Positions 16,875-38,621 of a stretch of 64,000 bases of DNA are shown here, piece by piece. The stretch spans positions 451,736 through 515,735 of the forward strand of contig NZ_QKZV01000002.1 of the NCBI RefSeq assembly GCF_003254115.1, in the 5' to 3' direction. Each line of letters opens with the position of its first letter. Position 1 is the stretch's first letter. The notes under the pieces were generated by a model. The model had not been told where the DNA came from, ran no database searches, and saw only the letters and a list, made by a program, of their open reading frames with translations. The DNA is from Hydrotalea sandarakina (GTDB taxonomy: Bacteria > Bacteroidota > Bacteroidia > Chitinophagales > Chitinophagaceae). A program made the translations under genes and the position numbers.

Positions 16875-16882
16875 TACTTTTG
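16875..16882 (+). promoter_or_regulatory. Promoter -7 element of rpsA
   Basis: TACTTTTG matches TAnnTTTG exactly and ends 30 nt before ATG 16913. No clear -33 TTG is seen. The 231-bp gap 16682-16912 otherwise shows only A/T-rich sequence and short C runs. Confidence 0.65.
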
Positions 16883-16912
16883 CAGCCCGAATTAAACCAA
16901 TCGGGTATTATT

Positions 16913-18835
16913 ATGATTATTTACAAACAATTAAACGCTGATGCACAGGAGCCTGCATCTGGTGCTGCTCAGGAAGCAGTGCAAGAACAAGCTACAGCGA
17001 CAACAACTGCACCTGTGGCCGAGCCTGTTGTAGAAACAGCTCATGATGATTTTGACTGGAGTGTAGACAAACGTAATGTAAGTACTTACACTTCTGATGA
17101 AAAAGCCAAATACGACAAAGTGTATGAAAACACGTTCGTACAAATTGAAGATGGCGAAATTTTACAAGGCGATGTAGTTGCCTTAACTAAAACCGATGCT
17201 GTAATTAATATTGGTTTTAAAAGTGATGGCTTGGTTTCTTTAAACGAATTCCGCGATATGCCGGGCTTAAAAGTTGGCGATAAAGTGGAAGTAATGGTGG
17301 TTGAAAAAGAAGACCGCAATGGAAACTTACACCTTAGTCGCAAATCAGCTCGTATTTTCCGTGCCTGGGAAAAAATTGTTGAAGTTCATAAAACCGGCGA
17401 AGTGGTTACAGGTACCGTTACATCTAAAACAAAAGGTGGCTTAATTGTAGATGTATTTGGAATGGAAACTTTCTTACCCGGCTCTCAAATTGATGTTAAG
17501 CCTGTAACTGATTACGATCAGTTTGTTGGTAAAACAATGGAATTTAAAGTGGTTAAAATAAATGAAACCATTAAGAATGCCGTAGTATCTCACAAAGCCT
17601 TAATTGAAAGTGATATTGAAGCGCAACGTGCTGAAATCATGAGTAAATTAGAAAAAGGTCAGGTATTGGAAGGTACTGTTAAAAACATTACCGACTTCGG
17701 TGCCTTTATGGATTTGGGCGGCTTAGATGGTTTATTGTACATTACCGATATTTCTTGGGGAAGAATTTCTCATCCATCTGAAGTAGTTAAAATGGATCAG
17801 AAATTACAAGTTGTTGTTTTAGACTTTGATGATGATAAAAAACGTATCAGCTTAGGTTTAAAACAATTAACTCCGCATCCTTGGGATGTATTACCGGCTG
17901 ATTTAGTAGAAGGTGCTGTAGTGAAAGGTAAAGTGGTGAATATTGAAGATTATGGTGCATTCCTTGAAATTCAACCCGGTGTTGAAGGCTTAGTTCACGT
18001 TTCAGAAATTACATGGGCTAATACACCTATTAATGCTAAAGAATTCTTTAAACTGGGTGATGAATACGAAGCTAAAGTAGTTACTTTAGATAAAGAAGCT
18101 CGCAAAATGAGTCTGTCAATTAAACAAATGACAGAAGACCCATGGAGCACTATCGAAACCAAATTTGCAGAAGGAAGTAAGCACAAAGGTTTGGTTAAAA
18201 ACATTACTCCTTACGGCGTATTTGTTGAGTTAGAAGCCGGTATTGGTGGAATGATTCACATTAGCGACTTAAGCTGGTTAAAACGCTTTAACCACCCAAG
18301 TGAATATGTAAAAGTTGGTGATTATATTGATACCATCATTCTTGGAATTGATAAAGAGAACAGAAAATTACAATTAGGACATAAACAATTAGAGGAAGAT
18401 CCTTGGAATGCTTTAGAAGAAACCTTTGGTGTAGGTACTGTACATGAGGGCACTGTTATTCGTAAAGATGATAAAGGTGCTATTGTGCAATTACCCTATG
18501 GCTTGGAAGGTTTTGCGCCCAATCGTCATTTAGTAAAAGAAGATGGTAAATCAGTTGGCGCTGACGAAACCGCTCAATTTATTGTAATTGAGTTTGACAG
18601 AAATGAAAAGCGCATTGTATTAAGTCATAGCAAAATATGGGAACAAGCTCAAGCAGAAGAAAAAGAAGCTGTTAAGAAAGAAGCAAAAGCTGAAGCTGAA
18701 AAAACCAAAAAGGCTGTGAAGAATATTCAAAGCAAGGTTGAAAAAGCTACCCTTGGTGACTTAGGTGCCTTAGCTGATATTCGCGCTAAACTTGAAGGTG
18801 ACGAAAAAGAGGGCGATAACAAAGACAACAAATAA
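16913..18835 (+). CDS. rpsA: 30S ribosomal protein S1
   Basis: Large RNA-binding protein that helps structured or leaderless mRNAs onto the ribosome, relevant in a phylum that hardly uses Shine-Dalgarno sequences. The 640 residues have an acidic Ala/Glu/Thr-rich N-terminal extension (about residues 8-45) and six S1 repeats. Well-formed repeats include GTVKNITDFGAFMDLGGLDG, GKVVNIEDYGAFLEIQPGVE and GLVKNITPYGVFVELEAGIG. A Lys/Glu-rich coiled tail follows at about 575-640. A longer frame opening at TTG 16880 would begin inside the promoter, so ATG 16913 is used. Confidence 0.95.
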   Translation: MIIYKQLNADAQEPASGAAQEAVQEQATATTTAPVAEPVVETAHDDFDWSVDKRNVSTYTSDEKAKYDKVYENTFVQIEDGEILQGDVVALTKTDAVINIGFKSDGLVSLNEFRDMPGLKVGDKVEVMVVEKEDRNGNLHLSRKSARIFRAWEKIVEVHKTGEVVTGTVTSKTKGGLIVDVFGMETFLPGSQIDVKPVTDYDQFVGKTMEFKVVKINETIKNAVVSHKALIESDIEAQRAEIMSKLEKGQVLEGTVKNITDFGAFMDLGGLDGLLYITDISWGRISHPSEVVKMDQKLQVVVLDFDDDKKRISLGLKQLTPHPWDVLPADLVEGAVVKGKVVNIEDYGAFLEIQPGVEGLVHVSEITWANTPINAKEFFKLGDEYEAKVVTLDKEARKMSLSIKQMTEDPWSTIETKFAEGSKHKGLVKNITPYGVFVELEAGIGGMIHISDLSWLKRFNHPSEYVKVGDYIDTIILGIDKENRKLQLGHKQLEEDPWNALEETFGVGTVHEGTVIRKDDKGAIVQLPYGLEGFAPNRHLVKEDGKSVGADETAQFIVIEFDRNEKRIVLSHSKIWEQAQAEEKEAVKKEAKAEAEKTKKAVKNIQSKVEKATLGDLGALADIRAKLEGDEKEGDNKDNK

Positions 18836-18947: not shown

Positions 18948-20516
18948 TTAATTTGTTATTTGATATCTTCTTTTTTTGCTTTGTTGATATTTGTTATAAA
19001 TTACGTTACTCATTGTTGTATTATAAACTTTCGATTCAAGCCATGAAATAATATCTAAATAAGCAAAGGCTCTTGTTTCAAATCTGTTTTTTTCCAGGTG
19101 CTTAATCTTTGATAACAAAATGGTTAGTTCTTCATGCATTTTAACTTTTCCGGCATAGAATGATCTTCGTAAAAAACCAAAAATTTCCTCTTCTACAATG
19201 GTTAGATTTTGCATCTTGGCCATATAACGATACACCGATTTAATCAGTGAATCCATAATATCTAAATTCCCCAACTCGTAATGAGCCAACAAATGCATTA
19301 AGCGTGCATAGCATTGCAAATCGTTCCGCAACGAAAAATTATCATTAATAATTTTTTGCAGATAATCAATGCATTTAGCAAACTGCCTGCTACCAAAATA
19401 TAACGATGCAATTTTATAATTAAAAACTAAAATACGATGTGCATCAATGAATCTTTCCAATTTCTGCATTTCGGTTTCCATTTCAGGAACCATGGTTAAA
19501 CCTTCTTCAAACGTACCGGTCATTAAGTGCCAGTTTATTTTTGCGCTGTATATGTAAATGAAAGTTTGCGTTCTAAAATTATCGTGCTTGTTAGCCACTT
19601 CACTTTTTGCAAAAGCCTCAAATCGTTTCAATGTAATTTGAAATTTTTCATAATTTCTTAAATCGAAATGTGCATTTAATAAGTTATGAATACCTTTAAT
19701 AAAATGGCCGGTTTCAACGGCAATCATGTTAGGATGTTCATCAAACAGTGTTAGCCATTTTTCGGAATAGCGATAATACATTAAAAAATCTTGCCTAATA
19801 AAAGCATACCAAGTATAGCTTTGGTATAAATATAAACGTTCATAAAATCCGTTTAACCGAAAGGCATTAGGCGGCAAATTTTCTTTAAAAAACATTTTAA
19901 CATCTGTTTCATCCTGTTCATTGCGGGCATGGCCATTTTTGATGTACCAGGTATATAAATGCAAGGCAAGGTTTGACAATGCAGAAACTTGCGTAACATG
20001 TTCACTAACCTTAATAGCTTCAGCTGTTATTTGCATTGTTTTACCCGGCATACTTCGGGTAATATGCAAGGTTTCAATTTTTTTCTCCAGCGATAGAACC
20101 TGGGTCATGAAATTGAATTTGTTGGCTGCAATAGCTATTTCCCTAGCCCGTTCCAATATTTTAAGACTTTGCAAGAAAAGCCCTTTGTTATAAAGAATGC
20201 GTGCATAGTCTAATTGTTCATTCAACTGCAAATCAATACTGTCTGCACTTTTCAACAATCTTAAACTTGCTAACACTTGTTTGTATAAATGTGTTTTTAA
20301 ATTGGCTAATTGAGGTTTGCTAATATTATTTAGTCGCTTTAATAAAAGTTTTTCATCATAATCCTGCATTTTTTCAAGCGCATCAAATAGTTGCACTACT
20401 TTTAAATCTTCTTTAGTTGAACTCCGTTTAATATATAATTTAAAATGCCGTTTTTCCGACTTTTCTAGTGATTGAATCAGCAGGAATAAAGCATCTGAAT
20501 TTCTGTTGGGCATCAT
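18948..20516 (-). CDS. Conserved-looking helical protein of unknown function
   Basis: About 522 residues, almost entirely alpha-helical in composition, with no signal peptide and no membrane segment. I recognise no catalytic motif. The spacing of hydrophobic and aromatic residues (for example FLQSLKILERAREIAIAANK and FAKCIDYLQKIINDNFSLRN) suggests a TPR- or SPO-like superhelix used for protein binding. The N-terminus MMPNRNSDALFLLIQSLEKS is taken from the ATG at 20516. A longer frame to 20561 adds 15 residues of poor quality. It stands alone, convergent with rpsA and back to back with the small RNA at 20641. Function unknown. Confidence 0.72.
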   Translation of the reverse strand: MMPNRNSDALFLLIQSLEKSEKRHFKLYIKRSSTKEDLKVVQLFDALEKMQDYDEKLLLKRLNNISKPQLANLKTHLYKQVLASLRLLKSADSIDLQLNEQLDYARILYNKGLFLQSLKILERAREIAIAANKFNFMTQVLSLEKKIETLHITRSMPGKTMQITAEAIKVSEHVTQVSALSNLALHLYTWYIKNGHARNEQDETDVKMFFKENLPPNAFRLNGFYERLYLYQSYTWYAFIRQDFLMYYRYSEKWLTLFDEHPNMIAVETGHFIKGIHNLLNAHFDLRNYEKFQITLKRFEAFAKSEVANKHDNFRTQTFIYIYSAKINWHLMTGTFEEGLTMVPEMETEMQKLERFIDAHRILVFNYKIASLYFGSRQFAKCIDYLQKIINDNFSLRNDLQCYARLMHLLAHYELGNLDIMDSLIKSVYRYMAKMQNLTIVEEEIFGFLRRSFYAGKVKMHEELTILLSKIKHLEKNRFETRAFAYLDIISWLESKVYNTTMSNVIYNKYQQSKKRRYQITN

Positions 20517-20626
20517 GTATATTTTTGTGTGAAACGCTTTATTTATGCGGGTTTGGCACAATTTATTTATTTTTTACCATAATAAAATCATGCCTAACTT
20601 AATTTCCCGCAATAAAAAACCCATCT

Positions 20627-20634
20627 TACTTTTG
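20627..20634 (+). promoter_or_regulatory. Promoter -7 element of the small RNA
   Basis: TACTTTTG, identical to the rpsA -7 element, on the + strand with no protein gene downstream on that strand for 1 kb. The -33 region at about 20603-20607 reads ATTTCC, only a partial match to TTTG. Transcription is expected to start near 20640. Confidence 0.6.
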
Positions 20635-20640
20635 CATAGT

Positions 20641-20806
20641 GAAGATGAGTTAAGGTATTGAAGCAATCGTTAAAGAGGCAAATCGTTAGAGGCAAAATCT
20701 TCGAGAAGTTTATTAAAAACTTCTTTTAAAAAGAATTCTAAGAATTTTCATATGGCAAGCAATCGTTAGAGGTCGTTCTGTTTCTACAGGATGGCCCTTT
20801 TTTTTA
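20641..20806 (+). ncRNA. Putative small RNA with three repeated motifs
   Basis: Between two genes on the minus strand, a + strand promoter is followed by about 165 nt and an excellent terminator, with no open frame of note. The motif AATCGTTAGAGG occurs at 20681-20692 and 20761-20772, and with two extra A as AATCGTTAAAGAGG at 20665-20678. No complement of the motif exists in the RNA, so the copies should stay single-stranded. GAAGAT (20641-20646) can pair with ATCTTC (20697-20702), enclosing copies 1 and 2. A hairpin AGAAGTTT/AAACTTCT (20704-20724) comes next, then copy 3, then the terminator. It does not look like 6S, SRP RNA, tmRNA or RNase P. A trans-acting or sponge RNA is the inference. 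Confidence 0.6.
20771..20805 (+). terminator. Terminator of the small RNA
   Basis: An 11-bp stem GGTCGTTCTGT/ACAGGATGGCC (20771-20781 with 20786-20796, three G-U pairs) with loop TTCT is followed by CTTTTTTTT. The polarity of the T-run shows that transcription is on the + strand. Confidence 0.85.
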
Positions 20807-20877
20807 AAGGCACAGCAAGTTAAAGATAATTTAACATATTCCAAATATTTTTTCCCTTTTTATCAAAATTTAAATAA

Positions 20878-38548: not shown

Positions 38549-38621
38549 GCGGAAATAGCTCATCCGGTAGAGCATCAGTTTCCCAAACTGAAGGTGGCGG
38601 GTTCGAGTCCCGTTTTCCGCT
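38549..38621 (+). tRNA. tRNA-Gly (anticodon CCC)
   Basis: A complete cloverleaf of 73 nt. The 7-bp acceptor stem is GCGGAAA/TTTCCGC and the D-arm is GCTC...GAGC. The anticodon stem TCAGT/ACTGA has loop TTCCCAA, giving anticodon CCC (codon GGG). The T-arm contains GGGTTCGAGTCCC. The discriminator base is T; CCA is not encoded. TAACTTGC at 38533-38540 may serve as its -7 element. The last base coincides with the last base of the stop codon of the convergent gene downstream. Confidence 0.96.

Follow-up and report, generated by a model that had tools for sequence, protein, structure and literature searches.

A predicted small RNA beside a TPR-type gene

The site lies in the genome of Hydrotalea sandarakina, within a window (the whole stretch of DNA that was analysed) of 64,000 nucleotides, where a minus-strand gene for a 522-aa, all-helical TPR-type protein (18948..20516), a distant relative of the BT2802 family, diverges from a predicted small RNA of about 160 nt (20643..20804, plus strand). 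The exact -7 promoter element that the original prediction had placed on the plus strand is there: TACTTTTGC, a box of the Bacteroidota type, occupies 20627..20635. Upstream of it on the same strand, the promoter element TTTTTTACCATAATAAAATC ... AACTTAATTT (20570..20605) scores 47.8 bits with a matrix built from the family and is the local version of tTTTG.CaTaAT.AAAtca...atAA.TTG.TTT; TTTGGCAT and AAGTTG are boxes within this sRNA promoter. The limits of the RNA were set from the promoter and the terminator, with the predicted start placed about 16 nt past the -7 box. The anticipated 11-bp terminator with a T run is an intrinsic terminator (20771..20807, plus strand) whose 11-pair stem (20771-20796) is followed by CTTTTTTTTA, and no ORF of at least 60 aa lies between the flanking minus-strand genes, as expected from the earlier statement that the region has no coding frame. 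The promoter sits inside an inverted repeat, CATCTTAC...GTGAAGATG (window 20620-20650), which recurs at loci L151 and L208 and is a possible operator. Adjoining the TPR gene, a gene resembling that of ribosomal protein S1, with six S1 domain matches, occupies window positions 16880-18835.

From 5' to 3' on the plus strand, the predicted RNA carries a motif copy CAATCGTTAAAGAGG (20664..20678), located by motif scan and backed by a family-wide excess of CAATCG; a second copy found by the same scan, AATCGTTAGAGG (20681..20692); a local hairpin of the predicted fold, GAAGTTT...AAACTTC (20705..20726), which separates these upstream copies from the core; and the conserved, family-defining core TTTTC-ATATGGCAAGCAATCGTTA-G (20745..20769), which contains the third motif copy and lies directly 5' of the terminator. 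The motif had been described as two copies of AATCGTTAGAGG plus one with two extra bases. Two exact copies do occur on the plus strand, at 20681 and 20761, while the third, at 20665, differs by two mismatches; the complement is absent as claimed, with 0 matches on the minus strand of the window. At up to two mismatches the window holds 3 copies against 3.21 expected, and 63 of 100 shuffles reach at least 3. Since this count equals chance, it is conservation in relatives, and not repetition in the window, that establishes the motif. The supposition that the copies stay unpaired is weakly supported: the predicted fold has a z-score of -1.19, with 27 of 200 shuffles folding equally well or better, and computed accessibility of the core is slightly above that of the rest of the RNA. 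Over 92 family RNAs the mean unpaired probability is 0.59 for the core and 0.55 for the upstream copies, against 0.52 for the remaining 5' part.

A scan of the window with Rfam 15 gave no family at gathering score except a tRNA (38549-38621). The best sub-threshold match at the site was PyrR (22.8 bits, 54 needed), and a known Rfam family was rejected. In three genomes of the same genus the DNA is 81-85% identical across the full sRNA length by BLAST; many genomes among the relatives match the 3' part of the sRNA, with several matches per genome, and in some genomes core copies stand in tandem arrays.

A multi-copy RNA family of the Chitinophagaceae

The element shared by these matches is UUUUUC-AUAUGGCAAGCAAUCGUUA-R followed by a hairpin or terminator. 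With the pattern CATATGGCAAGCAATCGTTAGAGG, allowing up to 3 mismatches in 24 (the less selected of our conservation measures), we found 1-8 copies in each of 97 of 147 Chitinophagaceae genomes, and the reversed pattern had 0 matches in all 147. H. sandarakina has three core copies: the window site, C3:238258 and C11:59467. The consensus over 185 copies reads TTTTTC, ATATGGCAAGCAATCGTTA, G (160) or A (25), and AGG; these copies were retained from 217 different matches by requiring the core and the T run, so the invariance of the core is partly due to selection. The upstream tract has T in 167-178 of 182 copies at positions -5 to -2 and C in 175/182 at -1, and the AGG after the core, present in 157-163 of 185, merges into the stem. 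The unit named in the original prediction, AATCGTTAGAGG, takes in the 3' portion of the core together with GAGG; the real unit is longer and lies more 5', its strongest part being AUAUGGCAAGCAAUCGUUA. For GAGG, the earlier reading as a Shine-Dalgarno-like core was rejected: this end of the unit is less conserved and belongs partly to the terminator stem, and phage copies lack it or have it changed. In one genus (G007 and G129) the matches listed have no ATG, reading ATATAGC in place of ATATGGC or something similar.

In the 3'-module alignment (A1; 32 modules, of which 31 were picked by eye from 60 random ones of 145 and one is the window's), the terminator stem covaries, with 37 double-change cells against 12.0 in shuffled alignments and 0 of 500 shuffles as high. 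Flanks and terminator sequences vary between copies, and the core is fixed. Among 298 genomes of the order, a covariance model of the 3' module hit 64, every one from the Chitinophagaceae. Allowing one mismatch, the 19-base core was found in 13 of 395 genomes sampled across the phylum (reversed pattern, 3 genomes); these 13 comprise 11 of the 14 listed Chitinophagaceae members and two from another family, with one mismatch each. Named carriers among the matches listed are nearly all Chitinophagaceae or unclassified Bacteroidota.

That this pattern comes from a repeat or mobile element without function, or from a sequence associated with terminators by chance, is hardly credible. Multiple copies, the tandem arrays of some genomes and an occurrence in viral contigs would suit it, but the flanks differ around a fixed core, the stem covaries, synteny and promoter are fixed, and the reversed control is empty in 147 genomes. 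The site almost certainly belongs to a multi-copy sRNA family of the Chitinophagaceae, with the architecture described here. The family is apparently undescribed and belongs to the known kind of multi-copy sibling sRNAs: we found no published work on it in the open-access literature (subscription papers and preprints lay outside the search), and the letters of the core were not found in print in an open-access text search.

Free-standing copies share a promoter and others end lipoprotein transcripts

The 185 cellular copies fall into 92 free-standing ones (class A), 41 in the 3'UTRs of lipoprotein genes (class B) and 52 others (class C). Class A copies share a rigid promoter (n = 92), in which tTTTG.CaTaAT.AAAtca...atAA.TTG.TTT is followed by TA..TTT, and the -7 box is preceded, at a distance of about 75-95 nt, by a further conserved stretch, AAA..C...aAgGGTTT. 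When TA..TTT[GA] alone was sought, 100 of 131 copies had a match; the opposite strand gave 58 and shuffled sequence 43. To train the promoter matrix, 92 of the 129 non-lipoprotein copies with at least 320 nt of upstream sequence were used; in the examined loci, which were chosen for the core and on which the matrix was itself trained, it finds 96 distinct sites above 14 bits, 95 of them with a core within 331 nt downstream. Within H. sandarakina the matrix separates the window copy (47.8 bits) from the C11 copy (-10.2), and the consensus is the same in the 64 copies beside a TPR gene and the 28 elsewhere. Some genomes carry the core solely without the sRNA promoter.

The predicted class A RNAs measure 65-210 nt (median 158). 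Extra copies of CAATCG occur in the 5' parts of 60 of 90 of them, 69 in total against 1 for the reversed control, and AATCGTTA occurs 42 times in RNA 5' parts against 0 reversed. The motif copies are thus conserved across related genomes, and the original prediction of a free-standing small RNA whose repeated motif would act in trans appears to have been right; here too the RNA is predicted from sequence.

In class B the stop codon of a small lipoprotein gene precedes the core by 7-95 nt; with the model of the PG1828 lipoprotein family, whose cut-off is 50, the own-genome example of this protein reaches 38.6. The next gene on the same strand resembles that of prephenate dehydratase in 21 of 38 class B loci, 0 of 87 class A loci and 4 of 51 class C loci, and an example of its product (198.6 against 219) falls below the NCBIfam cut-offs. 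L003 is the own-genome class B copy, and in this class a position between the lipoprotein gene and a prephenate-dehydratase-like gene is frequent.

The TPR gene accompanies the small RNA

Against the NCBIfam BT2802 family (NF058569), the divergently encoded protein aligns over residues 6-505 with an E-value of 1.9e-40, and its 139.3 bits fall below the curated cut-off of 550 for membership. In 30 of the 30 top loci the core is divergent from the TPR gene and 166-250 nt from its start codon, and 29 of the 30 have the sRNA promoter. The ortholog tier of this protein (E <1e-195) is present in 85 of 147 genomes, and the core in all 85: in 83 by pattern, and in two (G071 and G105) by the covariance model, adjoining the TPR gene. 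The family as a whole (E 1e-20) is present in 112 genomes; the pattern finds the core in 96 of these, and the covariance model, below E 1e-5, in another 4. Of the 35 genomes without the family, 34 also have no core; the remaining one, G015, has a completeness of 72%. The 85/85 and 34/35 figures come from a hand comparison of tables in which 15 TPR-free genomes were found by elimination, and since the genomes are related, these counts of co-occurrence are not independent. Where the ortholog tier is missing, core copies mostly lack the promoter. As exceptions, G098 (a TPR match in three parts, E 6e-136) and G101 (E 1e-184) have an sRNA-type promoter and no clear full-length ortholog, and the sole TPR match of G093 is a long-branch protein inside the sRNA-side clade. 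One genome (G007) has two ortholog-tier TPR genes, each adjoining a core copy. We propose that the TPR protein is the regulator of this sRNA promoter, which we consider likely; the gene may owe its place beside this intergenic region to something else.

The predicted structure of the protein is closest to Rap (8rst_A; Z 21.7, rmsd 4.1 over 316 residues) and then to NprR (4gpk_K; Z 19.4), with unrelated TPR proteins at Z 15-18; ranked by Foldseek E-value, the best matches of the TPR model are other TPR proteins. Residues 1-121 match sigma-factor chains weakly (Z 4.5-6.2) and the Ebola VP30 C-terminal domain at 7.3, and Foldseek gave no match for this N-terminal domain at E<=0.001. The TPR profile matched only designed proteins among the sequences of solved structures, at E 0.34 or worse.

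Rap and NprR are receptors of peptide pheromones, and the core can be read as a five-codon frame, AUG GCA AGC AAU CGU UAR (MASNR), that might encode a signal peptide for the adjoining TPR protein. The base after the core, G in 160 and A in 25 of 185 copies, would supply a stop wherever the core ends in TTA. Against this, silent third-position changes are almost absent among the matches listed, which indicates selection on RNA; one genus has AUA for AUG among the matches listed; the frame is not kept in the upstream copies; and the structural likeness extends to unrelated TPR proteins. We consider this peptide very improbable and rejected it.

A paralogous TPR gene and the leader of leuA

In 47 of 48 loci, which were chosen among the matches listed, a paralog of the TPR gene diverges from a gene whose beginning resembles that of the 2-isopropylmalate synthase gene (leuA). 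The own-genome protein encoded there reaches 605 bits with one leuA model (cut-off 532) and 575.5 with another (cut-off 598.7), and the leuA-side TPR protein scores 127.6, below the NF058569 cut-off of 550. The sRNA-side and leuA-side TPR proteins form two clades, each with support of 100/100.

In many genomes the leuA leader carries part of the core. RGCARGCA, in the same sense as in the core, is found in 20 of 47 leaders, against 0 for the reversed control, and it usually occupies the loop of a long hairpin. The stem of this hairpin covaries, with 13 double-change cells against 5.2 in shuffled alignments (18 sequences aligned); the alignment (A4) holds 18 of the 20 motif-bearing leaders, and the omission of L338, with an imperfect stem, and of L357, a near copy of L333, favours the count. 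A model of the leader hairpin hits 31 of 147 genomes at E<1e-4, all 31 of which also have the sRNA-type core. Of the 30 loci examined, every one has leuA; the motif lies near that gene in 29, and 28 have the TPR gene. In L333, L340, L355, L371 and others, a hairpin with the loop RGCARGCAA stands about 60-90 nt upstream of a conserved leuA start motif. Rfam gave no match on 12 leuA-leader loci. The motif is absent from the Hydrotalea leaders L329 and L330; because leaders of the window's own genus thus do without it, leuA is not a universal target. The link would also explain only part of the conservation of the core, which at about 25 nt is longer than the shared RGCARGCAA.

Viral copies and a possible 3'-end module

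The exact 19-base core is held by 14 viral contigs (L411-L424), each time with a hairpin. The T run is at most 3 in four of these copies (L411, L412, L414, L424), and a tRNA gene lies within 40 nt in four (L412, L414, L420, L424). The examined stretches of the 14 contigs contain no sRNA promoter, TPR gene or leuA. Five of ten viral-contig proteins match phage families (integrase, SbcC-like endonuclease and others) and five match none. A collection of named phages returned 17 records, none covering 80% of the query, at E ~8.

These copies bear on a further alternative, in which the core and hairpin would be a portable 3'-end module serving stability, processing or 3'-end formation and bound by a housekeeping factor, with the free-standing RNAs as merely one user. 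Such a module would account for the position of the element at the 3' ends of transcripts as unlike as sRNAs, lipoprotein mRNAs and viral RNAs, for a hairpin in 14 of 14 viral copies though 4 have no T run above 3, and for the genomes whose cores are all without the sRNA promoter. It leaves unexplained the extra copies near the sRNA 5' end, the leuA leader motif and the restriction to 1-8 carrier transcripts per genome, and we regard it as unlikely.

Possible competition for a shared partner, or pairing with mRNAs

The reading we prefer, held tentatively at a little short of even confidence, is a co-regulated family of decoy sRNAs whose partner is linked to amino-acid operons, in keeping with the sponge or titration role raised by the original prediction. 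The TPR protein would regulate transcription locally, turning the sRNA copies on or off in concert, as its paralog may do at leuA, and the RNAs would act as decoys, their repeated cores competing with same-sense sites in other transcripts: the leuA leader loop, the lipoprotein 3'UTR upstream of the prephenate-dehydratase-like gene, and phage transcripts. The common trans-acting partner would probably be an RNA-binding protein. RNAs that share a motif in the same sense cannot pair with one another but can compete for one partner; competition is suggested over pairing with mRNAs because the other carriers have the same sense and complements are not enriched.

The main rival is a set of base-pairing sibling sRNAs of the kind of FopS, Qrr and LhrC, with the core as an antisense seed and the copies as dosage, a possibility that we take seriously but consider rather doubtful. 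The architecture of the family is that of FopS (PMC11697453). UUUUUCAUAU could pair with AUAUGAAAAA starts, and TATGAAA stands at 69 of 846 gene starts against 17 mid-gene positions; this match reflects ATG and Lys codons generally. A pairing candidate lies within class B itself, where GCUUGC, complementary to the core and upstream of it, forms a loop in 24 of the 35 3'UTRs with at least 40 nt, as against 0 of 92 free-standing sRNAs and 4 of 52 class C copies (reversed control, 0). Against pairing, a long complement of the core gave 14 two-mismatch sites in the own genome against 13 for the reversed pattern, and 7-mer complements at the 846 gene starts, including those to GGCAAGCAAUCGUUAGAGG, are not in excess apart from the ATGAAA-type start codons. 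Duplex energies of the core are no stronger than those of shuffled cores, with 75 duplexes of the 24-base core at or below -14 kcal/mol at gene starts, 106 mid-gene, 58 for the reversed core and 85.1+-34.0 for shuffled cores. The leuA leaders, too, have the sense of the core and not its complement.

The decoy reading can be extended to an RNA regulon, a speculative proposal that we think may well not hold as a whole. A duplicated TPR regulator would control leuA on one side and the multi-copy sRNA on the other; the sRNA gene would have arisen from a duplicated leuA control region, keeping RGCARGCAA; and the carriers would compete for one putative RNA-binding factor coupling gene expression to the supply of amino acids. 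Phages would carry the element in order to tap or jam this factor.

RNA regulation in the Bacteroidota is poorly known and proceeds without the classical chaperones, and our search of the open literature found almost nothing on it outside Bacteroides. A 25-letter signature near amino-acid genes and in phages points to a shared putative partner, and the nearly invariant 25-nt core offers a bait for a new RNA-binding protein. The family also offers a candidate dedicated regulator with a defined promoter and a candidate metabolic link (leuA, pheA-like), and the phage copies suggest that viruses exploit the same putative partner. The original prediction anticipated neither the promoter dedicated to these RNAs and their pairing with a TPR gene, nor the motif in leuA leaders, nor the copies in 3'UTRs and phages.

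Comparison with known systems

BT2802 is, we presume, RusR, the regulator of ribose utilisation. RusR lies beside its target (PMC12596196). The TPR protein likewise adjoins its presumed target and aligns to the BT2802 family over nearly its full length, whereas its neighbour is an sRNA or leuA and not a ribose operon. Among the RRNPP regulators (Rap, NprR, PlcR), Rap and NprR are structurally closest to the predicted TPR part, with generic TPR proteins nearly as high; in contrast to that group, no pheromone gene accompanies the TPR gene, and the N-terminal domain of the protein, where a helix-turn-helix DNA-binding domain would be expected, gave weak matches.

The decoys CsrB and RsmX, RsmY and RsmZ exist in several co-regulated copies with a repeated single-stranded motif and a conserved upstream activating sequence. 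The Chitinophagaceae family resembles them in its several co-regulated copies, its conserved upstream sequence and, as in CsrB and RsmZ, a repeated putative binding motif within the RNA (CAATCG). Its motif is GGCARGCAAUCGUUA, unlike the GGA in hairpin loops of CsrB. CsrA (PF02599) was found in 0 of the 147 family genomes, with the controls E. coli, B. subtilis and T. maritima all matched, and since CsrA is not found in the sampled genomes, the CsrB kind suggested by the original prediction is, in the strict sense, excluded there.

The Qrr sibling sRNAs of Vibrio are Hfq-dependent and driven by sigma-54. Like them, the family has several copies, a long conserved region and a dedicated shared promoter; unlike them, it has an ordinary Bacteroidota -7 box, and Hfq (PF17209) exceeds the cut-off in 0 of the 147 genomes (three sub-threshold matches, 21-22 bits), so Hfq dependence was rejected.

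The closest likeness in design is to the FopS and GibS sRNAs of Bacteroides thetaiotaomicron, studied with the RRM protein RbpB (PMC11697453). As far as the consulted part of that report goes, FopS comprises paralogous sRNAs of the Bacteroidaceae in 12-15 copies, mostly intergenic with one 3'UTR-derived, that have a conserved single-stranded stretch and a Rho-independent terminator and pair through a seed at translation starts, those of susC included; a phage copy is also reported (PMC11697453). Multi-copy paralogs with a conserved stretch and an intrinsic terminator are likewise found in the Chitinophagaceae family, which shares with FopS, on that partial description, the phylum, intergenic and 3'UTR members, a phage copy and the lack of a classical Hfq; the likeness is one of architecture. 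The Chitinophagaceae core is absent from the other Bacteroidota families sampled, save for the two one-mismatch matches. The adjacent TPR gene, the long promoter, the leuA motif and the lipoprotein 3'UTRs, none of which that part of the report describes for FopS, are features of the Chitinophagaceae family.
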